Of a stretch of DNA of 33,445 bases, positions 3,216 to 22,966 are shown piece by piece (the first letter of the stretch is position 1; the number at the start of each line of letters is the position of its first letter). Source of the stretch: Verrucomicrobiales bacterium (GTDB lineage Bacteria > Verrucomicrobiota > Verrucomicrobiia > Verrucomicrobiales > DEV007); contig JABSSQ010000335.1 in assembly GCA_013213905.1 (NCBI GenBank), forward strand, positions 1 to 33,445. The letters run 5' to 3'. Under the pieces are notes generated by a model that was given only the letters and a program-made list of their open reading frames with translations, made no database searches and was not told where the DNA came from. The position numbers and the translations under genes are program-made.

Positions 3216-3226
3216 GCGACTGCGAT

Positions 3227-3274
3227 TCGTGCGACACTTCGTGCGACACTTCGTGCGACACTTCGTGCGACACT
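3227..3274 (+). repeat. Four perfect copies of a 12-bp tandem repeat
   Basis: The unit TCGTGCGACACT occurs four times in a row. In the -1 frame relative to the zinc-ribbon TPM gene it encodes CDTS-type repeats (SCDT x4) just before a stop codon at 3284. The unit length is a multiple of three, so copy-number changes would lengthen or shorten a Cys-rich tail without changing frame. Confidence 0.95.
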
Positions 3275-3286
3275 AAGACCACTTGA

Positions 3287-5342: not shown

Positions 5343-5416
5343 GTACGAAAACTGCCGTCATATGCCGTTGAGGCGGTTGCGAACACGGTAACTTGAGGCA
5401 AGAGTGCGGCCAACTA

Positions 5417-6721: not shown

Positions 6722-7315
6722 CTACCTCTTTCGCAGCAGCGAGTAATTCTTCGCAGGCGAGTCGTCGATTTCCCACTGCCCGGCTTTCTTCACCACGGTA
6801 ATTCCGGTGAAGTAAATCGGGTTGCCCGCCTGCCACGGGCCCCAGCCGTGGGGCTTTCGATAGTGGCGGTGAGAGATGCTCTTGAGGTTGTAGGTGATCT
6901 TCTGTTGGACGCCGTTGGCCTTGTCCTTCTCAGTCAGAGGCTGAGCGAAAGGGCCCCGGAGTTGAAACTCTTTGAATTGGATCGGAACGGGAATGCCTGA
7001 GCCGAGGAACTGGCTGAACCATTCTCCGTTTTCCTGCACCAGCATCTCGCTCATGAGATCGTCGACCACCTGCATGTGCCTGGGATCGATGAAAGGCTGG
7101 GCCGGTTCGGTTCCAACCGCGATAACAACGGTGGAAGCTTCCTCGTGTTGTTCAACGCGCTCTTCCATTTTGCCCTCAAGCGGGCTGAGGGCGTTCTCGA
7201 CAAAGTTGTTGAGTCCTCCGGGGGCAAGTTGGGCGTGGAGGCCGAGCGGGATCGACGCCAATGCGGCAACGAGGCAACCTCGAGAGAGGGGCCGGGAAAG
7301 AAGTGAAGGGGTCAT
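6722..7315 (-). CDS. Secreted protein of unknown function
   Basis: 197 aa from the ATG at 7315 (MTPSLLSRPLSRGCLVAALA...), chosen because it places a signal peptide ending near LGLHAQ at the N-terminus; the frame is open further upstream to 7417. The mature protein has a Glu-rich helical segment (ALSPLEGKMEERVEQHEE), then mixed alpha/beta text (WFSQFLGSGIPVPIQFKEFQL) and a basic C-terminus with WEIDDSPAKNYSLLRKR. I recognise no family. It is the last reverse-strand gene after the pilus/secretion train and lies 94 bp beyond the receiver gene, so it may be co-transcribed or separate. Confidence 0.7.
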   Translation of the reverse strand: MTPSLLSRPLSRGCLVAALASIPLGLHAQLAPGGLNNFVENALSPLEGKMEERVEQHEEASTVVIAVGTEPAQPFIDPRHMQVVDDLMSEMLVQENGEWFSQFLGSGIPVPIQFKEFQLRGPFAQPLTEKDKANGVQQKITYNLKSISHRHYRKPHGWGPWQAGNPIYFTGITVVKKAGQWEIDDSPAKNYSLLRKR

Positions 7316-7395
7316 GTCAGTGCTGTTGGGAACGCGCTGACTCGAAAGCATCTCTCTGGAAGCCGGCAGCACCGTCAAGCTGCCTGGCATCGGTA

Positions 7396-7425
7396 GAACC
7401 AGGGGGTGATTACTCACCCTGGTTC
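7396..7425 (-). repeat. Stem-loop spanning the stop codon of the receiver gene
   Basis: On the reverse strand GAACCAGGGTGA (7425-7414) pairs with TCACCCCCTGGTTC (7409-7396), with a two-base bulge and a four-base loop (GTAA) that contains part of the stop codon TAA (7412-7410). No T-tract follows, so it is more likely a 3' stabilising or partial-termination structure than a strong terminator. Confidence 0.55.
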
Positions 7426-7844
7426 AACACGTAGCGGAGTTCGGACGCGAGGCGGTCAGCCGTGTAGGGTTTGGGGAGAATGCCAGCGAAGCCATGCTCG
7501 AGAGCGGCATTGCGGGCATTCTGCTCAAGGTAACCGCTGCTGACGATGACCTTGGCTTCTGGATCGATCTGCTTGATCGCAATCGTGGCTTCGAGTCCGG
7601 ACATACCGCCAGGAAGCGCGAGGTCCATTACGACCACGGTAAATGGTTCTCCGGAAGTGAGGGAATCCTGATAAGCTTCTAAGGCTTCTTCGCCGCTGCC
7701 TACGGGAGATCCCTCGTAGCCGAGTTTGTTGACGATTGATGAAGCCAGAATTTGCATCGGCTGTTCATCGTCGACGATTAGAATCCGTTTGGACGCGACG
7801 GGCGCCTCGGACGTGCCATTTGGGGCTGTGACGGTAGCGTTCAT
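7410..7844 (-). CDS. Stand-alone response-regulator receiver (REC) protein
   Basis: 144 aa, consisting of one REC domain after a short Ala/Thr-rich N-terminus. The key residues are all present: acidic pair DD (25-26) in ILIVDDEQ, phosphoacceptor D74 in VVMDLALPGG, Ser102/Ser103 switch position (VIVSSGY) and K125 in LPKPY. There is no output domain, so signalling must go through a partner protein, as in CheY-like or hybrid-kinase relays. LPGGMSGLEA is typical of receivers attached to hybrid histidine kinases. It follows gspE by 33 bp and could report on or control the pilus/secretion machine. No kinase gene is in the window. Confidence 0.92.
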   Translation of the reverse strand: MNATVTAPNGTSEAPVASKRILIVDDEQPMQILASSIVNKLGYEGSPVGSGEEALEAYQDSLTSGEPFTVVVMDLALPGGMSGLEATIAIKQIDPEAKVIVSSGYLEQNARNAALEHGFAGILPKPYTADRLASELRYVLNQGE

Positions 7845-7867
7845 AGGTTGGGTTATTATGGATAAAT

Positions 7868-7873
7868 ATTATA
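7868..7873 (-). promoter_or_regulatory. TATAAT-like box between gspE and the receiver gene
   Basis: Reverse-strand TATAAT in an AT-rich 33-bp gap, 24 bp before the ATG at 7844. No convincing -35 hexamer is seen, so an independent promoter for the receiver gene is only possible. Confidence 0.25.
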
Positions 7874-7877
7874 ATTA

Positions 7878-10058
7878 CTAGAATGCAGTATAACTTACCT
7901 TTTGGATCTCGTCCAGCGTGGTGTTGCCGGCAATCACATGGGTGAGGCCTTCTTGATAGAGTGTTTGGAAGCCCGTCTTCAGCGCGGCTTTCTTCAGCTC
8001 AACCTGGGTGGCTTGGCGCTCGATGAGGTCGGAAATATCGGCGGTCATCTCGGCCATTTCCATCAGGGCGACACGACCGGTGTACCCGGTTCCATTGCAT
8101 TCGTCGCAGCCGTTCGCCATGTAGATGGGCTGATCGGTATTCTCGTAGTGAATGCCCTGGCGCTTAAATAGTTCCAGTATATGTGGGGTCAGTGTGACTG
8201 GCCGTTTGCAGTAGTTGCAGAGACGGCGAACGAGGCGTTGGGCCTGTGACATTGCGAGTGAGTCTCCGACAAGATGAGGCTCAACGCCCATGGACAGGAG
8301 TCGAGAGATAGCACGAAGCGAATCATTAGCGTGGAGAGTTGTCAGAACGAGGTGTCCAGTCAGCGAAGCGTTGATTGCTGAAGTTGCGGTTTCCTGATCA
8401 CGACACTCACCAATAAGGATCACGTCAGGGTCGGATCGAAGCAAAGCCCGCAGTCCATTGGCGAAGGTCAGGTCGTGCGTCGGATCGGTCTGGGTCTGAT
8501 TGATACCTTCGATCTCGTATTCGATTGGATCCTCGATGGTATGGATGTTTAGACCCTCGTCATTAACGCTGTTGATGAGCGCGTAGAGAGTGGTCGTTTT
8601 ACCGGAACCGGTGGGGCCCGTGATAAGAACGAGTCCCTGGTCGCGGCTCATGACCCGCTTCACGATCGTGCTTTGGCGCTGGGAAAAGTTGAGCTCGGAG
8701 AGTTCCTTGAGGCCGTCCTGCTTATCGAGGAAACGCATGATGACTTTTTGCATTTCATTGCGGCACGGAACGGCTGCGACACGAACATCGACACGCCGTT
8801 GCCCAATAGCGAGACCGAAGCGTCCGTCTAGGGCTTCCTGTCGCGACTGGCTCATGTTGGCGTAGTTTTTGATCAAAGCGATGAAGCGCGGCATCATTTC
8901 CTCCGGTGCCGTGTAGACATTGCGAAGGCGACCATCGATGCGGGCACGGAAGCGGGCGACGTTGTAGTATTTTTCGAGGTGAAGATCTGAGGCACGGCCG
9001 TTGATTGCTGCATAGAGAACCCAGTGCATCAGTTCCTCAGGAGAGTGATTGAGATTCTGCGGGTTGATCTCCGCCATGTCGTCGGGTTCGATTTCGACAA
9101 GGCTTTCGGAATCAGAGAGGCTCAGCGTCGACTTCTTGACCTCGATCCCAGCGGCACCTTCGACCTTGGAACCGGTTCGGCTGATGAGATTTCGAATCGC
9201 CTTTTCGTCAGCAAGAACGGTGACGAAGTCGACAGCTTCGTTGCCGTGTGAGAGCCATTCGTCTTCAAAGGCATAGTTACTTTCCTGGGCGGAAAGCAGG
9301 TAGACTTTCTGATCTCCCTTGTAGAGCGGGTAGACGTTGTGCTTCTCCAGCAACGGCGAGGGAAATTCGTCCTGCCGCAGTGTTTCTTCCGGGTTAAAGC
9401 AAAGCAGCGAGGGACCCTGGGTGATATATTGCAGGGCGACGCCGAGCCCGCCCATGATGCCGTTGTAGGCTTCACGATCGAGAGTGCCATGCTTGTCGAA
9501 AGACTCGGCATAAAGCATGGAGAAGCGCTCCCTCTCGTGGTCGTTGTAGGGATAGGTTTCGACGAGCCACTTAAACGCAGACTCCAGGTCTCCGGACGGA
9601 AAGTTTGGGGCAGGTGTATTCTCGAGCGGATTTGCTGACGGCAGCGGTGCGCTGGAAAGGCGCATAACGAGATCCTTGCGGATCTTCTCGTATTGGTCCT
9701 GCGTGATAGCGACGCGAATTGCAAAGCACGACGGGACGCCCCACATGTCGTCTGACTTGGGCGTATGGTGGGCAAAGATGATACAAGGGCCGAGCGTTGA
9801 TACCGGGAGCCACGGGCTGTCGGTTGTTGGGAAGCGGCCCAGCTTACGGAGGGCGTTCTCGGCCTCTACTGAACAGCTTTCGCGAGGCAGGGTGACAGGC
9901 AGCAGACCAAATTGGACTGCGGTGCCCTCCAGAGACATCAAGCCGCCCATATCGGCAAAGGCGCCGAGGGACCCAGCCGCACCTCCATTTGCCGCTGCTT
10001 CAGTAGATGAGGCAACGCGGTTCAGGGGTTCGACAGTGTTGGGGGCGGGGGAGGTCAT
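7878..10058 (-). CDS. gspE: Type II secretion / type IV pilus assembly ATPase, GspE/PilB class
   Basis: 726 aa, hexameric cytoplasmic motor that powers pseudopilus or pilus extension. The C-terminal half is canonical: HSPEELMHWVLYAAINGRASDLHLE, arginine-rich RVDVRVAAVPCR, Walker A GPTGSGKTTT (about residue 480), Asp-box region TQTDPTHDLTFANGLRALLRS, Walker B DVILIGE, His box GHLVLTTLHAND, and a tetracysteine zinc motif (LCNYC ... CDECNGTGYTGR). The N-terminal 340 residues are long and unusual: an Ala/Gly-rich start, then a globular part with no clear match, unlike a plain MshEN/T2SSE-N module. Seventeen bp separate it from the upstream pseudopilin gene, so they are likely one transcript. It is distinguished from the PilT-like ATPase at the other end of the locus by the zinc motif and length. 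Confidence 0.95.
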   Translation of the reverse strand: MTSPAPNTVEPLNRVASSTEAAANGGAAGSLGAFADMGGLMSLEGTAVQFGLLPVTLPRESCSVEAENALRKLGRFPTTDSPWLPVSTLGPCIIFAHHTPKSDDMWGVPSCFAIRVAITQDQYEKIRKDLVMRLSSAPLPSANPLENTPAPNFPSGDLESAFKWLVETYPYNDHERERFSMLYAESFDKHGTLDREAYNGIMGGLGVALQYITQGPSLLCFNPEETLRQDEFPSPLLEKHNVYPLYKGDQKVYLLSAQESNYAFEDEWLSHGNEAVDFVTVLADEKAIRNLISRTGSKVEGAAGIEVKKSTLSLSDSESLVEIEPDDMAEINPQNLNHSPEELMHWVLYAAINGRASDLHLEKYYNVARFRARIDGRLRNVYTAPEEMMPRFIALIKNYANMSQSRQEALDGRFGLAIGQRRVDVRVAAVPCRNEMQKVIMRFLDKQDGLKELSELNFSQRQSTIVKRVMSRDQGLVLITGPTGSGKTTTLYALINSVNDEGLNIHTIEDPIEYEIEGINQTQTDPTHDLTFANGLRALLRSDPDVILIGECRDQETATSAINASLTGHLVLTTLHANDSLRAISRLLSMGVEPHLVGDSLAMSQAQRLVRRLCNYCKRPVTLTPHILELFKRQGIHYENTDQPIYMANGCDECNGTGYTGRVALMEMAEMTADISDLIERQATQVELKKAALKTGFQTLYQEGLTHVIAGNTTLDEIQKVSYTAF

Positions 10059-10075
10059 CGGGAAGTGGCGGCTTG

Positions 10076-10573
10076 TTAGAGTGCTCCTGCAGGGATGAAG
10101 GAGGGATCATGCACGTATGGAGTGCCGAGGTCTGACCCGTCGAAATCAATCATGATTCCTGAGCCGGTGGTGTCGGGTTCAAGAAGCCGCCACGATGAGC
10201 CGGTCCATTCGGCGCGGTAGTCTTTGTCACTAGTCGAAGACACCGGATTCCAGTCACTGCGCATGAAGGGGCCCTTTGGGTTGAGCTCGCCGGACGTATC
10301 GGGGTCGCGCCACTGCAAGGTGCGGAGAATGTAAATTTCGTCTGCTCCGGAACTTGAGTTTGGCGTCGTGGAAATGGTCCACTGGGAGTGCCCGAATTCG
10401 CGAGTGGCTTTGTTCAGGGTGGAAATCACGTTTTCAGCCACGCCTCGACGGGAACCCTCGATGACATTACCGATTGAAGGCACAGCAATTGCGGAAAGAA
10501 TGCCGATCACAGCGATCGTGATCAGCACTTCAACGAGTGAAAAAGCCCGGACATTGGTGTAGGAACGAGTCAT
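10076..10573 (-). CDS. Type II/IV pseudopilin (G/H class)
   Basis: 165 aa with a short basic leader, then the N-methylation motif A|FSLVEVLITIAVIGILSAI, with Glu5. The residue before the predicted cleavage site is Ala10 rather than Gly. The hydrophobic helix is followed by a soluble globular domain with TREFGHSQW and a C-terminal region rich in Gly and Asp (IMIDFDGSDLGTPY). It would be cleaved and methylated by a prepilin peptidase that is not in this window, then added to the pseudopilus. It is the fourth of four consecutive G/H-type genes and lies 13 bp after the third. Confidence 0.92.
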   Translation of the reverse strand: MTRSYTNVRAFSLVEVLITIAVIGILSAIAVPSIGNVIEGSRRGVAENVISTLNKATREFGHSQWTISTTPNSSSGADEIYILRTLQWRDPDTSGELNPKGPFMRSDWNPVSSTSDKDYRAEWTGSSWRLLEPDTTGSGIMIDFDGSDLGTPYVHDPSFIPAGAL

Positions 10574-10586
10574 GAGGAGGAAGAGA

Positions 10587-10982
10587 TCAGTATGCGACTG
10601 CGGTTGATGTCGACGTATCGGTCAGGACTGATTTACTTAGTGCATTGAGATCGGTGGAAAGATTGATCGCATAGCCGGCCGGGGTGTAGTCGGTCAGGTT
10701 GGCCGGAGCGAATGAAAGATAAGGAATCAGCAGGGTGTAGCGCTGCTGGTCGTTTAGTGGAGACCAACCGGCGGAGACGTTGTCTTTTCCGTTGGCCTGG
10801 ATGTAGGAGACTGTTGCCATGTTGATGGCTTCAGCGCGAGAGATCGCAAGATTGCGCTCGGAGTCTCGTTTAATCTGAACAATGTTCGGAATCGCAAGGA
10901 AAGCGATGATCCCGATGATGCCAACGGCGGCAAGCACTTCCACGAGGGAAAAGGCCCTGTGCTTGTTGGGGGACGATATCAT
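10587..10982 (-). CDS. Type II/IV pseudopilin (G/H class)
   Basis: 131 aa from the ATG at 10982, chosen because it gives a 10-residue leader (MISSPNKHRA) in front of FSLVEVLAAVGIIGIIAFLA; the frame is open to 11207 but the longer N-terminus is not prepilin-like. Glu5 is present and Ala occupies the -1 position. The soluble part is short and contains ISRAEAINMATVSYIQANG, like a helical spine followed by a small C-terminal domain. It probably forms a minor or alternative pseudopilus subunit beside its paralogues. Confidence 0.9.
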   Translation of the reverse strand: MISSPNKHRAFSLVEVLAAVGIIGIIAFLAIPNIVQIKRDSERNLAISRAEAINMATVSYIQANGKDNVSAGWSPLNDQQRYTLLIPYLSFAPANLTDYTPAGYAINLSTDLNALSKSVLTDTSTSTAVAY

Positions 10983-10998
10983 TGGGGGAAAGAGGAGA

Positions 10999-11427
10999 TT
11001 ACTTGAGTTCGACCTTTGGATAGGAAGTAACGTCCCAGCTATCGAGGACAAGGTATTGGCCGGTTTTCTTAAGAGCTGCGCTCTTGATCTGGGAGGTGTC
11101 GGTCGTGTTGCTGAGAAAGTGAGCAAGGCTCGAGTCGTCGAGATACAGCTGGACGAGTTGGAGACGGGCCTGGCTGTTGCCTGCAGCATTGTAGGTTGCC
11201 ATGGCACCGGAGATGCCGACCTGGTCAGAGGTGGAGTTCACCCAGGCATTGACCGCGTTTTGTACTGCAGCCTGTTGTTGACGGGCAACAACTCGCCGGG
11301 TGTCCTGCGCGGCGTTTGAGAATGCCGAGATCACCAAGGCTGACATGATACCGATGACGGCAATCACAATCAGCATCTCCACCATGGTGAAGCCTTTGCG
11401 GGCTTTCTGGAGAATTGTGACAGTCAT
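10999..11427 (-). CDS. Type II/IV pseudopilin (G/H class)
   Basis: 142 aa. The leader MTVTILQKARKG ends in Gly12, followed by FTMVEMLIVIAVIGIMSALV with Glu5. The helix continues as a long polar alpha-spine (DTRRVVARQQQAAVQNAVNA) and a small C-terminal domain ending SYPKVELK. It is separated from the upstream pseudopilin gene by 129 bp containing two hairpins, and is tightly followed (16 bp) by the next pseudopilin gene. Confidence 0.92.
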   Translation of the reverse strand: MTVTILQKARKGFTMVEMLIVIAVIGIMSALVISAFSNAAQDTRRVVARQQQAAVQNAVNAWVNSTSDQVGISGAMATYNAAGNSQARLQLVQLYLDDSSLAHFLSNTTDTSQIKSAALKKTGQYLVLDSWDVTSYPKVELK

Positions 11428-11468
11428 GATCAGGAGGGATGCAGGAGTCGGATCTTTGTTTTGAGGGC

Positions 11469-11495
11469 ACCGGCTCCCGAATCACGGGCGCCGGT
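11469..11495 (-). repeat. Intergenic hairpin between pseudopilin genes (distal)
   Basis: ACCGGCTCCCG (11469-11479) and CGGGCGCCGGT (11485-11495) are complementary in 10 of 11 positions with a 5-base loop AATCA. It lies 42 bp before the next start codon (11427) and has no T-tract. It is the second of two stem-loops after the gspG-like gene. Confidence 0.55.
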
Positions 11496-11519
11496 CAGGC
11501 GAAATTTCTCAACAGCAGT

Positions 11520-11538
11520 TCAGCAGGTGATCTGCTGA
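11520..11538 (-). repeat. Intergenic hairpin just after the first pseudopilin gene (proximal)
   Basis: TCAGCAG (11520-11526), loop GTGAT, CTGCTGA (11532-11538): perfect 7-bp stem, 18 bp past the stop codon of the 11557-11970 gene. It may protect the 3' end of a short, abundant transcript covering that gene alone, or cause partial termination. Confidence 0.55.
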
Positions 11539-11556
11539 GCAACCTGTGTAGCTCCG

Positions 11557-11970
11557 TTACTGGCCTCCGGTGTAGAGAAGCTGTCGGCTGGAGGAATCCC
11601 ACTGGAGGTACATAGCAGCACCTGCAGTCTCGCTGACGGCGTCGGTAGCATCGAGGCCGGGGACACCGAAGTAGGTTCCATTGAAAGGACTGTCGGCGTC
11701 GCTCACAGTAGCTCCGGCAATGATGGCATCAATGATGTCAGCTTCAGCGGTGCTGGACGCGGAAAAGTCAACTCCGGCGGCCTGAGCTGAGGCGAAAACG
11801 GAGGCAATGTTCTGGGCATTGCGGCGGTAGGTGGCGTCCTTGGCGGAATCATTGATGCGACCGATGTTCGGGACAGCGATAGCAGCGATGATGCCAATCA
11901 CGGCGATCACCACAAGCATTTCGACCAGGCTGAAACCGGTGTTGGCGGCTTTCTGGGCACGGATTTTCAT
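11557..11970 (-). CDS. gspG: Type II/IV pseudopilin, likely the major subunit (GspG-like)
   Basis: 137 aa. Leader MKIRAQKAANTG, cleavage after Gly12, then FSLVEMLVVIAVIGIIAAIAV with Glu5 and the PNIGR motif that often follows in GspG/PilA proteins. The soluble part is Ala- and Ser-rich (NIASVFASAQAAGVDFSASS) and ends in a W-x-x-x-SRQLLYTGGQ strand. It probably forms the bulk of the pseudopilus: it alone has its own promoter candidate 79-107 bp upstream, a 5' leader and two 3' hairpins. Being first of four G/H genes and best matched to GspG also supports this. Identification as the major subunit is inference. Confidence 0.92.
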   Translation of the reverse strand: MKIRAQKAANTGFSLVEMLVVIAVIGIIAAIAVPNIGRINDSAKDATYRRNAQNIASVFASAQAAGVDFSASSTAEADIIDAIIAGATVSDADSPFNGTYFGVPGLDATDAVSETAGAAMYLQWDSSSRQLLYTGGQ

Positions 11971-12048
11971 GAGGATATGAGGTATTAGTTCGGTTGTTGA
12001 TTGTATGACTTAGAGAAACCTTTGCCTGAGGCATTGCTTCTCAAATTT

Positions 12049-12077
12049 AATATATTCAATAAAAATCATAATTTCAA
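12049..12077 (-). promoter_or_regulatory. Sigma-70-like promoter candidate for the gspG-like gene
   Basis: Reverse strand: TTGAAA (12077-12072), 17-bp spacer, TATATT (12054-12049), in an AT-rich part of the 201-bp gap after gspF. Transcription would begin near 12041 and give a leader of about 70 nt. Both hexamers match the consensus in 5 of 6 positions. Confidence 0.55.
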
Positions 12078-12144
12078 ATAAATTTATATCTTCTTGTTCT
12101 GACGAATAGTTAGAGCGATAAGTTAGCTTTTATGGCTGGATCCA

Positions 12145-12160
12145 GAAAGTTGCGACTTTC
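12145..12160 (-). repeat. Short hairpin after gspF
   Basis: GAAAGT (12145-12150), loop TGCG, ACTTTC (12155-12160), 11 bp after the gspF stop on the reverse strand. Weak stem and no T-tract; it may mark the boundary between the upstream transcript and the gspG promoter. Confidence 0.35.
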
Positions 12161-12171
12161 GTGAATCTTGT

Positions 12172-13395
12172 TTACTTCTTGAGCAGGGCATCACCGAGCG
12201 AGAAGACGGGGGCATAGATGGCGTATATTAACAGGCCGACCATGGTTCCCAGAATGACGATGGTGACCGGTTCGATCAGTTTGTCGATTTGGTTGGCGGC
12301 GGTATCGAGTTCGTCTTCGTAGTCCTCGGCGATTTCGTTCAGCAGTTCCGTTCCGGAGCCGGTCTCGGCCGCGGTCTCCATGAGGCCGCAGATCATGCGT
12401 CCGTCGTCACCCAGCCAGTGTGATTCGATCACGAAGGCGTCGGTTAGCGTCAAGCCTGAGAGAATGTGGTTTTTGACCTTCTCGAAGAAAGTCTGATAGT
12501 GATGATGCCAGGACGTTTGTCCCGTAATCTCGAGTGCCGTCGTAAGACGAACGTTGGCTTCAATCAGGAGTGCCAGAGTCCGGAAACCGACGGCTGCGGC
12601 TGACTTGCGAACGAGGCCTCCCACGACAGGGGTTTTCAGGAAAGCCGTCTGTACAGCCGGAATTCGGGAAATACGTCCCCAGTTCTTGAAGAACAAGAAT
12701 AGCGCGATCACTGGAAGTGCTGCCATCCACGGCTGCTTGAGCAGGATGTTGGAGAACGTCATCATCGCTTCAGTGGCCGCCGGAAGCTGGGTGTCCAGTG
12801 AGGTGTAGAGCTTGGTCATCGCCGGGACAAGTGTGAAGCTCATCGTGATAACCACGCCAATCCCAAGGGTGACGACGACCGCGGGATAGATCATCCCGGA
12901 CTTCAACTTCTTGAGAATCCGGTGCGTTTTCTTTTGGCTGCCTCCGATCCGTTTGAAGATTTCCGGCAGGCGACCGGATTCTTCTCCTGCCCGGATGAGA
13001 GCGATGATGTCAGGGGAAAAGACATCACCCTTCTTCTCCATGGCATCGCTGATCTTTTCTCCCTGGGCGAGGTCTTCTGAAACGTCAGCGATTATCCCGC
13101 GAAAGCGCGGGGTTTTGACCCGGTTGGCCTGGAGGCGGAAGCTTTTAACAATCGGGATATTTCGGTCAAAGCACTTGGCGAGTCCGTTGAAGAGCGCAAC
13201 ACGGTCGTCAAGATTCTTGCTTCGCGAGGTGAGGCGCTGGATGGATTCGTCGAGGCCGACGATATCTGAGATCTCAGCGGTTTCGACCTGGGTTTTTCCG
13301 GACCCGACGATTGCTTTTTCGTCCGTGCCGGTATCAACGACGGTAGTCGCCTTGCGCCCGGTATACACATTGGTCAATGCAACTTTCTTAAGCAT
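12172..13395 (-). CDS. gspF: Type II secretion / type IV pilus inner-membrane platform protein GspF/PilC
   Basis: 407 aa, normal length. It has two T2SF-type repeats: the first around residues 65-190 (FNGLAKCFDRNIPIVKSFR, EDLAQGEKISDAM, IIALIRAGEESGRLPEIF) and the second around 270-395 (FRTLALLIEANVRLTTALEI, MICGLMETAAETGSGTELL). Each is followed by a membrane helix region (IYPAVVVTLGIGVVITMSF, and IEPVTIVILGTMVGLLIYAIY at the C-terminus), with a third hydrophobic part at MAALPVIALFLFF. The cytoplasmic repeats contact the GspE ring and hold pseudopilins. The N-terminal 60 residues are short on clear homology. It is placed between the I-type minor pseudopilin and the G-type genes, as in many type II-like loci. 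Confidence 0.95.
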   Translation of the reverse strand: MLKKVALTNVYTGRKATTVVDTGTDEKAIVGSGKTQVETAEISDIVGLDESIQRLTSRSKNLDDRVALFNGLAKCFDRNIPIVKSFRLQANRVKTPRFRGIIADVSEDLAQGEKISDAMEKKGDVFSPDIIALIRAGEESGRLPEIFKRIGGSQKKTHRILKKLKSGMIYPAVVVTLGIGVVITMSFTLVPAMTKLYTSLDTQLPAATEAMMTFSNILLKQPWMAALPVIALFLFFKNWGRISRIPAVQTAFLKTPVVGGLVRKSAAAVGFRTLALLIEANVRLTTALEITGQTSWHHHYQTFFEKVKNHILSGLTLTDAFVIESHWLGDDGRMICGLMETAAETGSGTELLNEIAEDYEDELDTAANQIDKLIEPVTIVILGTMVGLLIYAIYAPVFSLGDALLKK

Positions 13396-13443
13396 GACTG
13401 AACAGGGTTAGGTGGGGAAGTTAACAGGTTTAAACGGGTAAAA

Positions 13444-13920: not shown

Positions 13921-13923
13921 GAT

Positions 13924-15582: not shown

Positions 15583-15587
15583 GAAGT

Positions 15588-16523
15588 TTAAAGGTTCGGG
15601 AACATCGGCAGCGCGATGAGAAAAGTAGATTTAGCGGCCATGTGTTCGTAGGCCTGACGTGGATAGGCGGCAGGATCGACCGGTGTCCAGGCAGTGCCTT
15701 GATAGGGGTTGATGGCAGGATCGGGTAGCCAGACGAGATAGAATGGATTACCCTTCGACATCTTAAAGCGATCGGTATCAGTGCCTTCGAGAACCGCGTT
15801 CCTGGATTCGCGCTCGAACGCAACAAAGGTGGGATGAAACGTGCCGGCAGTGCCGCTGTCGTAGAACACGTCGTAGTAGTCGGTCAGAGAACCGTTCTTG
15901 TAGCGGCGCACGGAAGCATAGGTGCCGGAAATGTTCGTCGTGGTGACGAAGTCGATCTCGTAGATTGCCCGAACCCGGTAATAGCTCTGGTTCGCATCAG
16001 GCGCGAGCATGTAGATCGTCGTGTTCGGCCGACTGGTCGCAGGCACATTCCGGATCGGGCTATCATAGACGGCAGCTGCAGTCGGGTTGAGATCGATGAA
16101 AAAGTTTCGAAATGCTTCGGGAGTATCGAGACGGGGGCGCTGAGTGGTGGTATCAGGATCTCCAGCAAAATAGCGAAGCAGTTCCGGGCGGAAGGTGTTG
16201 TTGATGCTTCGTGGCAGGACGTAGATGGCAGACGACTGGCTTGCGTCCTCGAGGATCTTGTCGCGCATCTCGTTGGCAAATGCAGCTTTACCGAAGTTTG
16301 GCGAGGCGTAGACATTAATCTTGCTGCCCCCTTGGTTGTAAAAGTTGGTCATGGCCGAAGCTCCGATGTCGGCTTCGACGACGCGGGTAAGTCGCTTGGA
16401 ATTGGCACTAATGCTGCCGAGAACGAGCGAAGCGGCTCCCAGGAAGATAGCGGACAATGAAATGGCGACCAGCATTTCCACGAATGTCCAGGCTCGTGAA
16501 CCTTTCTGGAGGCGGCACGTCAT
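15588..16523 (-). CDS. Minor pseudopilin, GspJ-like
   Basis: 311 aa. The leader MTCRLQKGSRA precedes WTFVEMLVAISLSAIFLGAA, a type III-signal helix with Glu5, but Ala11 at the cleavage site and Trp at +1 are atypical. The helix ends in a polar stretch (SKRLTRVVEADIGASAMTNF). The large soluble domain contains YRVRAIYEIDFVTTTN and RRYKNGSLTDYYDVFYD, beta-rich as in GspJ-class tip proteins. It is followed 5 bp later by the K-like gene, so the two are probably translated together. Confidence 0.82.
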   Translation of the reverse strand: MTCRLQKGSRAWTFVEMLVAISLSAIFLGAASLVLGSISANSKRLTRVVEADIGASAMTNFYNQGGSKINVYASPNFGKAAFANEMRDKILEDASQSSAIYVLPRSINNTFRPELLRYFAGDPDTTTQRPRLDTPEAFRNFFIDLNPTAAAVYDSPIRNVPATSRPNTTIYMLAPDANQSYYRVRAIYEIDFVTTTNISGTYASVRRYKNGSLTDYYDVFYDSGTAGTFHPTFVAFERESRNAVLEGTDTDRFKMSKGNPFYLVWLPDPAINPYQGTAWTPVDPAAYPRQAYEHMAAKSTFLIALPMFPNL

Positions 16524-16540
16524 TTCACAAGTTAGTCAGA

Positions 16541-17263
16541 TTACTCTTCTTCGTTTTCTTCAGAGGCGTTGGAGGCCATGCCTTCAATCTGCCTCATCTG
16601 GACGTCATCGGGGCGCAGGAGACCCATGGCGCGGCGTGAGGGGCCGTCCTCCTTATCGATACTGCCCTGTCCCTGAAGGGCATAGGAGACAGACGGTGAG
16701 AGGTCATAGCTGATCTGGACGGTCTTGCCGGTCAGTTCGTGGGTCTCGATGTCGAGCCATCCGAGCAGGACGTTTTCTTTAGTCACCCGAATGACCTGGA
16801 GATGTTCAGTCTGATCGGGGATGAGTTGGGGAACGACTTGACCCTTCTCAAGAATGATGTCGCCGAGGAGGAGGCGAAGTCCGTTCTGCCCGTAGCTACT
16901 CCCCGTAACACTCAGGTTGCTGAGTCGCTCGCGAATCTGCAGCTCTTCAACATTTTCTCCCCGCTGGTTTTCTGTTTCGCGATGAACCGAACGACGGGCG
17001 TAGGGATTGCGCTCGTTCTCCTTGAGAAGGAGTGGACGTTTCTCGGATGGGCGCATCTCGATAGGCATGGAGGGAACGAAGTTCAGCATAGGCTGAATAG
17101 CTCCAGGCATACCGGGCCGTCCCTGGACTGCACCAGAGGCCCCGGACTGACCGGGAGCCGCTCCGGTTGCGTTTCCGGGGACGAATTTGGTCTGGGCGAC
17201 CGCGTCGTGCTGCCCGTGAGCGCAGGCGAGGAAAATTAAAGCAATGGTAGAGAAAATCTTCAT
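16541..17263 (-). CDS. Secreted locus protein, PilP/GspC-like by context
   Basis: 240 aa. Signal peptide MKIFSTIALIFLACAHGQHDAVAQ, then a Gly/Pro/Ala-rich stretch (GNATGAAPGQSGASGAVQGR). A Glu/Arg-rich helical linker (ERNPYARRSVHRETENQR) precedes a compact domain at about 120-190 (VTGSSYGQNGLRLLLGDIIL, then HLQVIRVTKENVLLGWLDIE). That domain resembles the periplasmic homology region of PilP/GspC, which links the platform to the secretin. The acidic tail ends SNASEENEEE. The homology call rests on layout and position (after the PilO-like gene), not on a clear signature. Other scaffold roles are possible. Confidence 0.65.
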   Translation of the reverse strand: MKIFSTIALIFLACAHGQHDAVAQTKFVPGNATGAAPGQSGASGAVQGRPGMPGAIQPMLNFVPSMPIEMRPSEKRPLLLKENERNPYARRSVHRETENQRGENVEELQIRERLSNLSVTGSSYGQNGLRLLLGDIILEKGQVVPQLIPDQTEHLQVIRVTKENVLLGWLDIETHELTGKTVQISYDLSPSVSYALQGQGSIDKEDGPSRRAMGLLRPDDVQMRQIEGMASNASEENEEE

Positions 17264-17283
17264 GGTTGTGTCAGGGCATTGGA

Positions 17284-17820
17284 TTAACTCTTGAGGAGGG
17301 GAATCTGGATCTGCAGCTCCATGTTGACGTTATTACCGCGATCGCCGCGTGTGAGAACGCATTTGGTGATGCGGCATGCGGGAATCGTCTGCTCAAGCTT
17401 CCCCAGCCAGTTGAGTGTTTTGACGTAGTCGTCTTCAAAGACGAGGTCTCCGACCAGCACTTCAGAGATTCTTTCGTTTTTGTCGACTTCGCGTTGATCG
17501 AACTGGCGCGAGATCGGAAGAATGTCTCCCTCACGAATGAGTTCGAGGATGCGACGCTCGGCTTCGTGCTGAGTACCAAAAGAGACGAAGTGCGGTTCCC
17601 ACTCCGAGTAGATCCGGCGAAGATCGGCAGTTTTTGACTCAAGCGATTTCATCTGAATCTCTGCGAGTTGGGATTGCTGCTCCGCGGATTCGGCTTCGGA
17701 ACGTGCCGACTCAGATGTGGTCCGGGCGGAAGCGGTTGAGTTGCGGAGCTGGCTCACGCCGTAAAGCATTCCGGCGATGAAGATCAGGAGCACAAAGCAG
17801 GCTGATTTGTGATTGTTCAT
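17284..17820 (-). CDS. PilO/GspM-like inner-membrane alignment protein
   Basis: 178 aa, bitopic. One membrane helix near the N-terminus (CFVLLIFIAGMLYGVSQL), then a Ser/Glu/Ala-rich coiled-coil-like stretch (TSESARSEAESAEQQSQLAEI). A C-terminal domain at about 75-175 has the alternating helix-strand pattern of a ferredoxin-like module (ERRILELIREGDILPIS, KTLNWLGKLEQTIPACRI, VNMELQIQIPLL). This is the PilO/GspM layout. It follows the PilN-like gene by 21 bp, as PilO follows PilN in other organisms. It is shorter than many PilO proteins, so one ferredoxin-like repeat rather than two seems present. Akkermansia Amuc_1100 is a PilO-like protein in a comparable locus, but the relation is only structural analogy here. 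Confidence 0.7.
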   Translation of the reverse strand: MNNHKSACFVLLIFIAGMLYGVSQLRNSTASARTTSESARSEAESAEQQSQLAEIQMKSLESKTADLRRIYSEWEPHFVSFGTQHEAERRILELIREGDILPISRQFDQREVDKNERISEVLVGDLVFEDDYVKTLNWLGKLEQTIPACRITKCVLTRGDRGNNVNMELQIQIPLLKS

Positions 17821-17841
17821 AGCGAAAAAGGACGGGATGAA

Positions 17842-18387
17842 TTATTCGGCGTAAATGATGGTTCCCTGATAGTCGATCGAGTCGCGGCCCTTCTTCTCGT
17901 CGGAGCTCACGATCTGGTAGTTCATGGAGGAAAGGGCAAGACGTGCTGTTTCAATCTGTTCGCTGCCGCCACCGTCGACTTTCAACATCAACTGGGTGTT
18001 GGAAGGGATTTCTGGATCGCGGGTCAGGGCCAATTCAGCGATCGTAGCATCTTTGCTCATGCTGCGACCGATCGTCACGGTGACGGGTTGGAGCGGACGA
18101 GCGCCTTCCAGCCAACGGGCAATACTTTCGGCCTCCTTTGACTCGCTGATTAGTCCCTGATGCTTGGCACGGTGCTGACCTTCGAGACCTCGGGCGTCGG
18201 TGATCCGCACGCGCATGGCGTTTTCGCTGGTTTCGTAGGCTTTCTTACTCAGGTAAAAGTAGAGGCTCAGCAGCACCGACGCGACGGCGACGAGGTAGAA
18301 GGCGGCCGGGACCAGTTTGTAGGCAGACGGCAAGCCGGCGGAAACGTTTTGTCTCTCGGTTTTAATATCGTGGATAATGTAGTCCAT
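17842..18387 (-). CDS. PilN-like inner-membrane assembly protein
   Basis: 181 aa from the ATG at 18387 (MDYIIHDIKTERQNVSAGLP); the frame remains open to 18441 but the added residues look non-coding. A cytoplasmic tail is followed by one membrane helix at about residues 28-50 (LVPAAFYLVAVASVLLSLYF), a coiled-coil-like segment and a small alpha/beta domain (PVTVTIGRSMSKDATIAELAL, then VDGGGSEQIETARLALSSM). That is the PilN layout. In other systems PilN's cytoplasmic peptide docks in PilM; the only actin-like candidate in the window is directly upstream. Confidence 0.68.
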   Translation of the reverse strand: MDYIIHDIKTERQNVSAGLPSAYKLVPAAFYLVAVASVLLSLYFYLSKKAYETSENAMRVRITDARGLEGQHRAKHQGLISESKEAESIARWLEGARPLQPVTVTIGRSMSKDATIAELALTRDPEIPSNTQLMLKVDGGGSEQIETARLALSSMNYQIVSSDEKKGRDSIDYQGTIIYAE

Positions 18388-18403
18388 GAGAAGTCCGGGG
18401 GGC

Positions 18404-19270
18404 TTAGTGATTGCCAAGGATGTTCCAAAGGTTGTTCTCATCGGTCACGTCAGTGACATGCAGACCGCCCAGGATCGGGAGATAGGAACGTGTGAACTCT
18501 CCCTGCTTCTTGTCTTCCATGAGGAGGACGCGAGTGGTGGGGGCAGCGGCATCGAGAAAGGGGCGAAGCATTTGCGAGACAGTCGATTCGCCTCCCGGGG
18601 CAAGACCGCTTCGGCAGCGAAGGTCCTGCCATTGGCCGTTCTTCTGGCGGATGACGCAAAGAGAGTTGTCGAGCCAGGTAAGGACGATTAGGTCCTGACT
18701 TTTCAGTGAATTGTCAGTGTGAATCTGATTGAGCAGGCGAGCCGTCATGGCGAACAGGCCGACACAGATGCGGGCGGGCTTGAGGTTATGGGTGCGCATC
18801 GTTTCTTCGATCGATTTGATCATGGAATCGTCGCACGCCATCATGAGGCTGGCGCTGGTTTCGGGGTTGTGATGCAGGGCGTATCGCTTGGAGCGATCGT
18901 GCTTGGTGCCGAGGATAGACTTCGGGTTTTGGCGAAGTTCCTCGTCCCAGCCCTTCTTGCGGGAAAGATTATGCTCCAAGCTGATGAGGAAGCGGTTGTT
19001 TACGGAGATGCCAAGCCAGCCGTCTTCGGTCAGGGAAGCCCAGTGTCCGCCCATCTGTGCCGCAACATCACTGAACTCACCATCGGCGACGCCGATATCA
19101 TCGGTTTTGCCTTTCTTGTTGATTGAGCACCATGAGACCTGGCCTCGACTTATATTAATGAGGGTCGATTTCTTTTTAGGAAAGCGGGCCGGCCAGGCGA
19201 AACGGGGATTGTCAGCTTCAGGGCGGAAGGCCGCGAAGCTAAGGACGTCCTTAATGTCTTTAATTTCCAT
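18404..19270 (-). CDS. PilM/GspL-cytoplasmic-domain-like protein
   Basis: 288 aa with no signal peptide or membrane helix. It reads as an alpha/beta protein with actin-like layout: TLINISRGQVSWCSIN (strand-turn-strand start), ISVNNRFLISLEHNLS, ICVGLFAMTARLLNQIHTD, and DLIVLTWLDNSLCVIRQKNG as the second-subdomain start. Those alternate as in PilM and the cytoplasmic half of GspL, but the phosphate loops are too degenerate to call by eye. Position (first after PilT, directly before the PilN-like gene) and lack of membrane segment favour PilM over full GspL. A scaffold protein without nucleotide binding is the main alternative. Confidence 0.62.
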   Translation of the reverse strand: MEIKDIKDVLSFAAFRPEADNPRFAWPARFPKKKSTLINISRGQVSWCSINKKGKTDDIGVADGEFSDVAAQMGGHWASLTEDGWLGISVNNRFLISLEHNLSRKKGWDEELRQNPKSILGTKHDRSKRYALHHNPETSASLMMACDDSMIKSIEETMRTHNLKPARICVGLFAMTARLLNQIHTDNSLKSQDLIVLTWLDNSLCVIRQKNGQWQDLRCRSGLAPGGESTVSQMLRPFLDAAAPTTRVLLMEDKKQGEFTRSYLPILGGLHVTDVTDENNLWNILGNH

Positions 19271-19276
19271 GGAGTT

Positions 19277-20347
19277 TTAGCGGGGTAAAGTGTCAGGGGA
19301 CGATTTGAGTTCCTCATTATGGAGGTATTCGGCGACCTCGTGTTCAGAGAAGCCGGTGCTGGCGGGGATGCTGGATCGCCAGCCTTCGTATTCGCGCAGT
19401 TTCATACTGTGCTCGAAGTTCATCATTCCCTTGGTGATGCCGGTCTCGAGCTCGTGTTCGAGACGCTTGAAGTCGCCGCGGCGGACCATACCGGTGACGG
19501 AGTCGTATGGGAAAAGAACCTCGTGAATGGGGAAACGGCGTTCCTGTTGTCCGTCGAGCAGGAGCTGCTGACAAAGGATCATTCGCATGGAATCGGCAAA
19601 TGAGAGCATGGCGTTTTCCATGCGCTCGGTCGGAATCATCTTGAGAAATCGCTGCACTGTCTGCGCGGCAGATGAGGTGTGCATCGTTGCGATTACGACG
19701 TGCCCGGTCTCTGATGCCTGCAGAGCAATCTCGGCAGTGAGGCCATCACGAATCTCACCAATCATGATGACGTCAGGTGCCTGGCGCAGCGAAGCTCGCA
19801 GCGACATTCCGAAGTCGAGCTCGTCGGAGCCCATCTCGCGCTGGGTCACGAGGGAGGGGAGGTTGGTAGGGAGGATATACTCAATTGGATCCTCAAAAGT
19901 AATGATGTGTTCCCGGCGGCGTTCGGCGCGAGCTTTGATCATGGCCGCAATGGTGGTCGACTTACCGGAGCCAGTCGCGCCGCATACAAGAAAAAGGCCA
20001 TTCTCAGCTTCGAGATAGGCTTTGAGCGCCTGGGGAGGGAGAGAAATCTGCTGTGGCGTCGGAATGTGATTCGGGAGGAGACGCATGACCCAGCGCAGGC
20101 GGCCACGTGTGGTCATTTGGTTCACACGGAAACGAAGGGGGCCGATCTGGGTGGCGAAGTCTTCGGTGCCGGGTTTCACCTCTATTTCTTCTTCCGGCTG
20201 ATAAATGAATGAATCGACAATGAGTTCGCCATTCTTTCGGTAAATCAGCTGCTCGCGGGGAGTGATGTAGAAATCACTGATGCTGTGCTGCTGAGCCAGA
20301 TGGAGGATCCGGTTTCCCAGGGGGCTTCTTTCGTCAATGCCTTGCAT
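19277..20347 (-). CDS. pilT: PilT-like twitching/retraction ATPase
   Basis: 356 aa, the length of PilT rather than of GspE/PilB. It has the Walker A loop GATGSGKSTTIAAM (about residue 122), the Asp box region THHIITFEDPIEY-like HIITFEDPIEYILP, Walker B DVIMIGEIRDG, and the His box TGHVVIATMHTSSAAQTVQR. A PilT-style N-terminal domain is present (SDFYITPREQLIYRKNG). There is no tetracysteine zinc motif. The C-terminal AIRNLIREGK of classic PilT is replaced by VTGMVRRGDFKRLEHE, so the retraction-specific AIRNLIRE motif is divergent. It leads the reverse-strand gene train and is divergent to the secretin. A retraction motor is typical of type IV pili and absent from plain type II secretion. Confidence 0.93.
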   Translation of the reverse strand: MQGIDERSPLGNRILHLAQQHSISDFYITPREQLIYRKNGELIVDSFIYQPEEEIEVKPGTEDFATQIGPLRFRVNQMTTRGRLRWVMRLLPNHIPTPQQISLPPQALKAYLEAENGLFLVCGATGSGKSTTIAAMIKARAERRREHIITFEDPIEYILPTNLPSLVTQREMGSDELDFGMSLRASLRQAPDVIMIGEIRDGLTAEIALQASETGHVVIATMHTSSAAQTVQRFLKMIPTERMENAMLSFADSMRMILCQQLLLDGQQERRFPIHEVLFPYDSVTGMVRRGDFKRLEHELETGITKGMMNFEHSMKLREYEGWRSSIPASTGFSEHEVAEYLHNEELKSSPDTLPR

Positions 20348-20379
20348 GGGTTTTTCAGGTGAAAAGAGAGGGGCGGAAA

Positions 20380-20385
20380 ATTATA
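20380..20385 (-). promoter_or_regulatory. TATAAT -10 box upstream of the pilT-led gene train
   Basis: Reverse-strand TATAAT at 20385-20380, 33 bp before the ATG at 20347. The -35 position holds only a weak T-rich hexamer, so an activator may be needed. It is in the AT-rich 174-bp region shared with the divergent secretin gene. Confidence 0.4.
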
Positions 20386-20465
20386 AAACTTTCGTTAAAA
20401 ACAAAAATTACCATAATTAAAATGGATAACAAGAGTGAAAATTCTTATTTTTATAAAATAAATGG

Positions 20466-20493
20466 TTGATATTTAAAAAACCATAATTATAAT
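20466..20493 (+). promoter_or_regulatory. Sigma-70-like promoter for the secretin gene
   Basis: TTGATA (20466-20471), 16-bp spacer, consensus TATAAT (20488-20493). The start of transcription would be near 20500, leaving a leader of about 22 nt before the ATG at 20522 and excluding the in-frame TTG at 20498 as start. The nonamer CCATAATTA occurs at 20411 and 20481 and could be a repeated operator. Confidence 0.6.
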
Positions 20494-20521
20494 AAATTTG
20501 AAATTATCCACTTCCAGTAAA

Positions 20522-22966
20522 ATGAAGACCTCATTTTTTCTTATTATCACCACAGCCCTTGCTTTTGCAGGATTGAGCCCGCTCCGGGCCCAATACGGTC
20601 AAGACATGGGTATCTATAACGACGCCGAGTATGAAGCGGCGGCCGCGCCATTGAGAAATGTGCCTGCAACTCAATACAGCTTCTCCAAGGCCAACCTGAG
20701 CGACGTCATGAGACTGATCGCTGCCGATGCAGGAATCGGTTTCTTCGGTTTGCCTGACGGCACTGAAGGAGGCGACCGCCTCGTGACCTTCACGCTTACG
20801 GCCCCGCCATTTATCGCTCTCGAAACCCTCGCCAAAGCCAACGGCGTTAGTCTCATCCCTCGAAATGGAATTTGGTATCTCCGCCCGGCTAATGACCGCG
20901 AGCTGATCGGCCGTATCTACGAAATTAACTACAATGCCCAGGAGCTTGTTACTAAGAACAACCAGGGCGGCGGCCTTTCCGGTGGTTCCGGCGCGACCGG
21001 CGCGGGAGGCACTGGTAGTCTTAACCTCCAGGGGGCTCCTGATTTCTTTGTGACCGAACCTTCTCGCATCCTTGAAGATATTCAGAACATTCTTGATATT
21101 CCGACCACGGGCGCGAACGCCGCATTTGCTCCGACCGCTTCTGTCGACAACCTGACGCAGCTGGCTCTCGCCAATGCTGTCGGTGCGGATATCGTGGCCC
21201 GTCCTAGCGGAGGCGCGGCTTCCGAAGATGAGGGAGGCGGCTCCAAGGTGATCTGGAACAGTGACTCGAATACCCTTTACGTTGTCGCAACTCGCCAGCA
21301 GCACCAGTGGATCGAAGCTTACCTCGCTTCTGCAGATCGACCGCAGCCGATGATTTCTGTGGAAGTGAAGTTCCTTGAGACCCGCAAAAACCCGACGACC
21401 GATTTTGGCATCGACTGGGATGGAGTGACAGGTTCCAACGGCCTTGAGCTGACACTCAGTGACAACACGGGGTCGCTTAACCTCGACCGTATCGGTGACT
21501 ACACCCTGCCTACGGCCGTCCTCAGTTACAGTGACCTGAACTGGAAGCTTCGCGCACTTTACCAGGACCAAAACGCGAAGGCGGTTTCCTTCCCTCGCAT
21601 GGTGACGCTCGATAACCGTGAGGTGTCTTTCCGAAGCGTCGTCAACCAACCGGTTCTCGGTTCCAGCGCCAGCGCCAGCCTTGGTGCCGGGGCGACCCAG
21701 ACCTCCTCTGTGGAATACCTGCCTATCGGCACCGTCATCAATATCCTGCCCAAGCGGATGGCAGGGGACAAGATTCTGCTGAACGTCTCCGTTACGATTT
21801 CTGACATTGTGGGAACTGAAATCATCAACGGTAACCCTTTCCCGATTGCAACGTCACGAGTCTACACGGCACCCCTCACGGTGAAGAGCGGCTACACGGT
21901 TGCAATCAGTGGTCTCGACGCCGCCCGCACCAACGAGTCGGATGCCGGTGTTCCGGTTCTCGGTCGCATCCCTGTCATCGGATATGCTTTCAAGAACCGC
22001 CGCGAAGAGCGCAATCGCCAGCATCTCATGATGCTCATCACTCCCGTTGCGCTGGAACCTGGCGTAGAGGGCCTGACCAAGAAGCCTATCACTGCTGAGC
22101 CGTGGAAAGTGCCGCCGGCAGGGGCTGACAACTATGGTGCCAAGGCTCCGGTTTATGACGCGCATTACTATCAGAATCAGCCACATATCAATGAGGTTCC
22201 TGAGTTCAACAGTGCTTCAGTGGAGTCCCGTAAGACGAACCAGACCTTCGGAATGCGCACCAACGCTGATCTCGAGAAGGAACCTGAAGAGGCCGTGGTG
22301 ACCGAGCTCCGCCTCGGCGCCAGTGCCGGAGAGTCTCAGCCGATCCAGGCTATGCCGGTCGATGAGCTATATGCCGGGGTGACTCGCGAGCAGACCGTGA
22401 CTAACAACTCCACCAGTATGCAGGCGATTCCGGATGCCTTGAACACTCCGAATGTGGTCGAGGATATCTCTTCCATCATCGAGGCACCTGCACCGGCGCC
22501 CGAACCGGAGGCCGCACCGCAGGAGCCGGCTGTCGAAGTCGAAGCGCCTGAAGCTGCTGTCGAGGAAGTTCCAACTGCGTCCGCTGAACCGGGTGGGTCG
22601 GCAGCTCCCGTTGAGGGCAAAGAAAGCCCGAGCGCTGTCGCTCCGGCTAAGCCCGGAGGCAACGGGCGCGTCGCTGAAATGCGCTCTTCGCTCGATGGAT
22701 TGAAAGCCGAGTTGGCCAGGATTCCTGAAGGTGATGCCAAGCTTTCGGCTGATGACGCCCAGATGGTAATGAATGTTTATGAAGAGTCCCAAGCCCTCCT
22801 CGGCCAGGTGGACGAAGCCCGCGGAAAACAGTCCGGCCCGCTCCAGGGTGAGCTGGGTGATGTCTGGTGGGAGCTGATCAATGTGAAGACGACTGCTATG
22901 AAAATGAGCCGTCGTTCACCTAAGAGCCTCGCTCTCCGAACCGAGGGAGCAGAGGACTCCGAGTAA
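20522..22966 (+). CDS. gspD: Secretin (GspD/PilQ family) with long C-terminal extension
   Basis: 814 aa outer-membrane channel. A signal peptide (MKTSFFLIITTALAFAGLSP) is followed by an N0-like domain (YSFSKANLSDVMRLIAADAG, then LETLAKANGVSLI). A Gly-rich loop (GGGLSGGSGATGAGG) leads into an N1-like part (SNTLYVVATRQQHQWIEAYL). The secretin core begins near MISVEVKFLET and includes VSFPRMVTLDN and GTVINILPKRM, ending with VPVLGRIPVIGYAFKNR and HLMMLITPVALEP at about residue 512. Beyond the core are some 300 residues: a polar linker, a Pro/Ala/Glu-rich stretch, and a helical C-terminus (MRSSLDGLKAELARIPEG). The start is the ATG at 20522 because the promoter lies just upstream. No pilotin gene is seen; the long tail may replace it. 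Confidence 0.95.
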   Translation: MKTSFFLIITTALAFAGLSPLRAQYGQDMGIYNDAEYEAAAAPLRNVPATQYSFSKANLSDVMRLIAADAGIGFFGLPDGTEGGDRLVTFTLTAPPFIALETLAKANGVSLIPRNGIWYLRPANDRELIGRIYEINYNAQELVTKNNQGGGLSGGSGATGAGGTGSLNLQGAPDFFVTEPSRILEDIQNILDIPTTGANAAFAPTASVDNLTQLALANAVGADIVARPSGGAASEDEGGGSKVIWNSDSNTLYVVATRQQHQWIEAYLASADRPQPMISVEVKFLETRKNPTTDFGIDWDGVTGSNGLELTLSDNTGSLNLDRIGDYTLPTAVLSYSDLNWKLRALYQDQNAKAVSFPRMVTLDNREVSFRSVVNQPVLGSSASASLGAGATQTSSVEYLPIGTVINILPKRMAGDKILLNVSVTISDIVGTEIINGNPFPIATSRVYTAPLTVKSGYTVAISGLDAARTNESDAGVPVLGRIPVIGYAFKNRREERNRQHLMMLITPVALEPGVEGLTKKPITAEPWKVPPAGADNYGAKAPVYDAHYYQNQPHINEVPEFNSASVESRKTNQTFGMRTNADLEKEPEEAVVTELRLGASAGESQPIQAMPVDELYAGVTREQTVTNNSTSMQAIPDALNTPNVVEDISSIIEAPAPAPEPEAAPQEPAVEVEAPEAAVEEVPTASAEPGGSAAPVEGKESPSAVAPAKPGGNGRVAEMRSSLDGLKAELARIPEGDAKLSADDAQMVMNVYEESQALLGQVDEARGKQSGPLQGELGDVWWELINVKTTAMKMSRRSPKSLALRTEGAEDSE

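Follow-up and report, generated by a model that had tools for sequence, protein, structure and literature searches.

Does a bacterial locus that pairs a retraction-type motor with minor prepilins resembling those of the type II secretion system (T2SS) build a pilus, a secretion machine or a hybrid of both? The question is raised by the window, the whole stretch of 33,445 nucleotides analysed here, which comes from a Verrucomicrobiales bacterium (assembly GCA_013213905.1, contig JABSSQ010000335.1, our contig C263 of a 4.96 Mb genome, G000, assembled in 535 contigs). A preliminary description had taken positions 6722-22966 for a hybrid type IV pilus (T4P) and T2SS locus. That description is largely right about the genes, and we favour, with moderate confidence, a dedicated type IV filament machine that would work like a type IVa pilus (T4aP) with a retraction-type motor of its own, because its motors, a PilM-like protein and a probable PilP-like protein lie together in one cassette. 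Judged by sequence and predicted folds, the machine is closer to a T4P than to a T2SS, and its role would probably be attachment or capture; the T2SS resemblance of the window lies in its minor prepilins. The hybrid label is weakly supported, because the window has what looks like a split PilM/P set (M and P recognized by fold, N and O by place) and the genome has a separate T2SS-like locus, C66.

Two motors and a probable pilus-like inner-membrane set in one cassette

One cassette occupies positions 7410-22966. A minus-strand series runs from 20347 down to 7410 in the order pilT-like, M, N, O, P, J, K, I, GspF, p1 to p4, PilB/GspE-type ATPase and response regulator, with gaps of less than 50 bases in 12 of 14 cases; a divergent secretin starts at 20498. 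The PilT-like ATPase named in the preliminary description is present (19277-20347, minus strand): it scores 264 bits with TIGR01420 (pilT_fam), below the cut-off of 319, the next best family scores 149, and each of its nine best PDB matches is a PilT or PilU. The second ATPase (7878-10058, minus strand), a PilB/GspE-type assembly motor, matches T2SSE (E = 2.8e-104), with the PilB (411 bits) and GspE (407 bits) models in a near tie below their cut-offs. The tetracysteine motif noted earlier together with a GspE typing is visible in its sequence, but is no GspE marker, because the PilB reference 5zfr carries a tetracysteine too.

In a tree of 41 rows the PilB/GspE half and the PilT half are split with 100/100 support. 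The window PilT-type ATPase falls on the PilT side in a clade of verrucomicrobial relatives, and its PilB-type partner in a clade separate from the GspE group of proteobacteria, so the two do not both sit in ordinary GspE clades, the placement that would have told against the earlier reading. Both keep what we take to be the expected catalytic motifs, and the PilT motifs are invariant across 14 homologues. Because these motifs are kept and the two motors lie in opposite halves of the tree, we reasonably infer a retractable filament for adhesion or uptake. The PilT C-terminal motif, which we take to be the one named AIRNLIRE, has that form in the Aquifex reference and reads DSVTGMVR-RG here; other PilT references and an adjacent pair of PilT-type genes elsewhere in the genome (C464) vary too, and we therefore place no weight on the difference.

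The secretin (20498-22966, plus strand, with a long C-terminal extension) and the GspF/PilC platform protein (12172-13395, minus strand) were both correctly recognized before, with matches to PF00263 (E = 8.8e-32) and PF00482 (E = 8.5e-38), respectively. Among secretin models GspD scores 108, PilQ 97 and MshL 87 bits, none at its cut-off; the MshL secretin of MSHA pili, at a cut-off of 250.2, is thus not recognized here, and neither is the Amuc_1098 family (62.5 bits against a cut-off of 750). The platform protein scores 204 bits with HofC and 193 with GspF, both below cut-off.

The preliminary description left the inner-membrane set unnamed, and we find candidates for each part. M (18404-19270, minus strand), a cytoplasmic protein of 288 amino acids, is predicted to adopt an actin fold (predicted local distance difference test score 91.9). 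Foldseek ranks PilM first (5eou, E = 2.3e-12), with the cytoplasmic part of GspL at 3.4e-11 (4pht) and FtsA and other actin folds below. M would thus be a separate cytoplasmic PilM-like protein lacking a membrane part, followed by a separate N gene, and not a GspL in which cytoplasmic and membrane parts are fused. N (17842-18441, minus strand) overlaps M by 38 bases and has a conserved N-terminal (I/C)HDLK-type motif, a single membrane segment and a periplasmic part; O (17284-17820, minus strand) has an N-terminal membrane segment and a periplasmic part, the topology of both being assigned by eye. N has no family match and O only chance-level ones; place, membrane segments and conservation suggest that they are PilN- and PilO-like. 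P (16541-17263, minus strand), whose N-terminus looks exported, is modelled with one well-predicted domain at about residues 105-190. Among its first seven VIA rows PilP accounts for four, GspB for one and type IV pilus complexes with the chain unnamed for two (Z 4.0-5.2); later rows are other folds (Z up to 3.9), and we weakly assign it as a PilP or GspB (HR domain)-like periplasmic protein. The statement that the window held no PilP with a clear signature therefore gives way to a candidate, with a weak match. The models drew on 51 of 78 available homologues of M and 47 of 72 of P; sequence-profile searches of the two against the PDB gave nothing relevant. No pilotin was identified in the window, as had been noted.

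The count of seven prepilin-like genes holds, on evidence that differs from gene to gene. Five pass the Pfam N_methyl cut-off of 21.2 bits: I (13444-13920; 23.5 bits), p1 (11557-11970; 30.0), p2 (10999-11427; 31.8), p3 (10587-10982, its start moved in from 11207; 24.9) and p4 (10076-10573; 27.9), all, like J and K, on the minus strand. J (15588-16523), PilW-like by conserved order and with an N-terminus, read by eye, that has Ala at -1, stays below it at 17.6 bits. K (13924-15582), a large PilX-like protein of 552 amino acids, has no family match and, by eye, an N-terminal hydrophobic segment lacking Glu at +5, so its prepilin status rests on its N-terminus and its place in the gene order. The I, J and K minor prepilins of secretion systems have T4aP counterparts in PilV, PilW and PilX; for I the PilV and GspI models are both weak. 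The main-subunit candidate is p1, which is also matched by a profile of modular prepilins (A5, E = 6e-10). A GspG-type major pseudopilin was not recognized among p1 to p4 (best GspG score 31.7 bits against 88.85), nor was the Verru_Chthon cassette (TIGR02596, TIGR02599), whose C and D models reach 13-22 bits against cut-offs of 256.5 and 70. The window has no prepilin peptidase match, again as described earlier; two partial Peptidase_A24 matches above cut-off lie elsewhere in the genome, at the ends of contigs C398 and C516.

From these parts a working scheme can be proposed. J, K and I would prime a filament of p1 to p4, which the PilB-type ATPase would extend and the PilT-type ATPase withdraw, while another part of the genome would supply the prepilin peptidase. 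Less confidently, we propose that the filament may leave the cell through the secretin, may serve attachment or substrate capture, and may display large modular prepilins, encoded beside the secretin in most relatives and scattered in this genome.

The stand-alone response-regulator receiver that closes the series (7410-7844, minus strand; PF00072, E = 1.7e-18) adjoins PilB in 8 of 10 same-genus loci (L042-L051); of the other two, L046 lacks that half and L047 is cut at a contig end. Below it, an open reading frame (ORF) at 6722-7417 overlaps the response regulator, has no family match and is unmatched in 20 fetched loci (19 from relatives and one from the same genome), only about six of which extend more than 1.2 kb beyond a response-regulator match. 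It is probably, though not surely, outside the system, so that of the range first proposed we retain 7410-22966.

Conservation and large modular prepilins among relatives

We sampled loci by alignment of M, keeping 80 of 92 confirmed, all verrucomicrobial; some of their genomes are shared with our other set of relatives, which carries the G numbers. Order and strand of the core genes detected are the same in all 62 loci having both PilT and GspF, which makes the locus more than a chance assembly. Core genes were detected by single-sequence search, and among the 62 this left undetected K in 13, I in 4, J in 2, P in 2 and O in 1. The secretin is divergent from PilT wherever both were found (54/54); where 4 kb or more lie upstream of PilT (57 loci), it went undetected in 10. 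At the other end, 49 loci extend at least 2.6 kb beyond GspF; at least two of p1 to p4 come after it in 21 of them, and p1 to p4 were undetected there in the other 28, the cultured relative Brevifollis gellanilyticus (L106) included. In the same-genus locus L046 (G020:C6), 6 kb follow GspF, yet p1 to p4 and the PilB-type gene do not. M itself is present in 28 of 56 genomes, our own counted. None of the titles and abstract openings listed in our literature searches names this cassette.

In 38 of 54 loci a long ORF whose N-terminus resembles that of a prepilin, as scored by a crude motif, occupies the slot between secretin and pilT. These proteins are mostly of 500-600 amino acids, with single cases of 844 and 1805, the latter (L108) far above other loci. 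The remaining slots hold an ORF lacking the motif in six loci (two of them prepilin-like by eye) and no ORF of 120 amino acids in ten. A choice-of-anchor K domain was found in all four locus copies scanned (E = 8e-20 to 1e-25). Pilins combining a pilin N-terminus with an extra module are also reported for the T4P of Streptococcus sanguinis (PMC8179133); unlike there, the module here is choice-of-anchor K and the host is two-membraned.

Three scattered homologues lie elsewhere in the genome: the copy on C71 has a choice-of-anchor K domain, that on C75 prepilin matches only, and that on C14 no family match. The 33 genus genomes, taken at all completeness levels, divide into 20 with M and 13 without, and scattered copies (ORFs lying away from the core locus with E of 1e-20 or lower, counted by hand, with pieces on G004:C113 and G032:C14 taken as halves of a locus copy) are present in 19 of the former and 4 of the latter. 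When only genomes of 90% completeness or more are taken, the counts are 17/17 and 1/6 (Fisher p = 0.0002, on presence only) and, with size limited to 5.5 Mb, 6/6 and 1/6 (p = 0.015). Outside the genus, two of the four searched genomes with M have scattered matches (G034, G043), and G037, which lacks M, has one match, to the C-terminal part.

From this pattern we advance, as a rather speculative proposal, a retractile pilus with exchangeable large adhesive subunits. The slot would hold one modular prepilin in most relatives and scattered homologues would supply others; lineages like this one would have emptied the slot, leaving it to the scattered set to determine the polymer or surface that is gripped and pulled in. 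Sulfatase matches are found within about 6 kb of each of the three scattered prepilins of this genome, which suggested an association with glycan loci. We dropped this idea because sulfatase ORFs were not enriched: 12 in 572 kb (43 regions, 40 from relatives and three our own) against 5 in 241 kb of control regions. Controls were picked by contig number, 16 of the 20 chosen existed, and not every scattered copy was covered.

Pilus, secretion system or competence machine

The window resembles a T4aP in having assembly and retraction-type ATPases, a platform, PilM-like and probable PilP-like proteins, a secretin and prepilins together. It differs in being a single divergent cassette with its own PilT-type clade, in the absence of family matches for M, N, P and K, and in the large modular prepilins of its relatives. 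Several observations weigh against reading it as a T4aP-like machine. No T4P-specific or T2SS-specific model reaches cut-off on any window protein, so that the family-model check of the preliminary description decides neither way on a hybrid. N and O, which lack family matches, were assigned by place, topology and conservation, and the P match is weak: Z is about 5, where values below 8 may reflect merely a common arrangement, and by Foldseek its best E is 0.04, to chain Pa of the pilus-machine model 3jc8. PilY1 had no match among the locus proteins scanned, the rest of the genome not being searched. The tree does not tell PilB from GspE use; its program cautions that long branches, that of the window PilT clade among them, may have been drawn together, and it holds a single sure PilB reference besides HofB (REF_PilB_Abaum, an unannotated gene, grouped with GspE and was not counted). 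The ATPase of C66 likewise groups with the PilB side and not within the proteobacterial GspE group, and the tree place of the window ATPase hence does not exclude a role in secretion. As to the modular prepilins, the window locus has none, only 150 bases separating secretin from pilT; genomes with M are larger; the co-occurrence counts ignore shared ancestry; and outside the genus G040 and G044 have M with the locus copy only and no scattered one.

A variant T2SS, in which a short periplasmic pseudopilus pushes folded enzymes out via the secretin and the PilT-like ATPase only disassembles the pseudopilus, is in our judgement unlikely. The window shares with a T2SS a secretin, E- and F-type proteins and I/J/K-like subunits, the large one lacking Glu at +5, in a compact locus; GspD is the best secretin model, by little; the C66 and window ATPases fall in the same broad half of the tree; and the genome has at least 151 sulfatase matches (150 of 235 candidates scored), products that may need export. 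A T2SS, however, is not expected to have a PilT-type ATPase heading its operon, a part frequently lost in T2SS according to Denise et al. (2019, PMC6668835), nor a separate PilM-like protein lacking the GspL-type membrane part, and no T2SS model was matched at cut-off. A T2SS-like locus also stands elsewhere in the same genome: C66 is so called because its GspG exceeds the cut-off of 89 with 115 bits beside GspE-, GspF-, GspD- and GspK-like genes, themselves below cut-offs. Denise et al. also report clustering of the so-called Bacteroidetes T2SS with T4aP, which would be a case comparable to the window machine.

Two further readings start from a pilus. In one, the machine is a pilus but takes no part in assembling the scattered modular prepilins, a task that would fall to other filament systems of the genome; we regard this as possible, if doubtful. 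The genome yields seven secretin matches and, above cut-off, 12 T2SSE-type matches, of which the window contains two, and the lack of scattered copies in the machine-bearing G040 and G044 fits; yet a homologue lies inside the cassette in most loci with a scorable slot, within the genus scattered copies track M, and an Amuc_1098 secretin exceeds cut-off in 12 of 13 genus genomes without M. The other, a DNA-uptake (competence) pilus, would suit a retraction-type motor, a secretin and several prepilins, and PF03772, which we take to be ComEC-type, is matched in 46 of 52 genomes and in 40 of 40 near-complete ones. PF03772 is however also found in the six near-complete same-genus genomes lacking M, and the genome has other type IV filament loci; we consider a competence role quite improbable.

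According to one proposal (PMC13174399), a type IV-like pilus, MUL2, helps Verrucomicrobiota to hold on to their substrate, the large polysaccharides that they take up. The MUL2 locus of Akkermansia (Amuc_1098-1102) is like ours in being a verrucomicrobial set of type IV-like pilus genes that includes a PilM-type protein and also a secretin (PMC13174399), and unlike it in secretin family and in spread: the Amuc_1098 secretin exceeds cut-off in 47 of 52 genomes (weaker matches elsewhere may be other secretins), against M in half of those searched. Neither its spread nor that of PF03772 explains the patchy distribution of the window machine. The T4aP-like machine that we favour would be a second verrucomicrobial pilus-like machine, its spread independent of the MUL2 secretin and its retraction-type motor its own. 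The modular pilus subunits of its relatives may be how these polymer-eating bacteria grip their surroundings; if exchangeable subunits do grip substrates, substrate capture becomes directly testable through one motor or one modular prepilin.

Other loci and neighbouring genes

An Amuc_1098-type secretin fragment of this genome (661 bits against the cut-off of 750) lies at the end of contig C101 and adjoins dephospho-CoA kinase-like and Rho-like ORFs; genes of these two kinds are drawn near MUL2 (PMC13174399). A further locus of the same genome (L067, G000:C201) has a highly divergent PilT-like ATPase together with prepilin N-termini that look I/J/K-like by eye. In G034 a single contig (L060, G034:C35) carries a second, more divergent system, with matches resembling PilT, PilB, M, GspF and secretin; in the tree its PilB and PilT are long-branched sisters of the window clades.

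Elsewhere in the window, an ORF at 4873-5391 (in the interval 4733-5391) may, judged by eye, be what is left of an oxidoreductase gene that was cut or frameshifted. An adjacent gene pair at 2565-4435 has TPM-domain matches, that of the second gene below cut-off, and the first gene starts with a zinc-ribbon-like segment.

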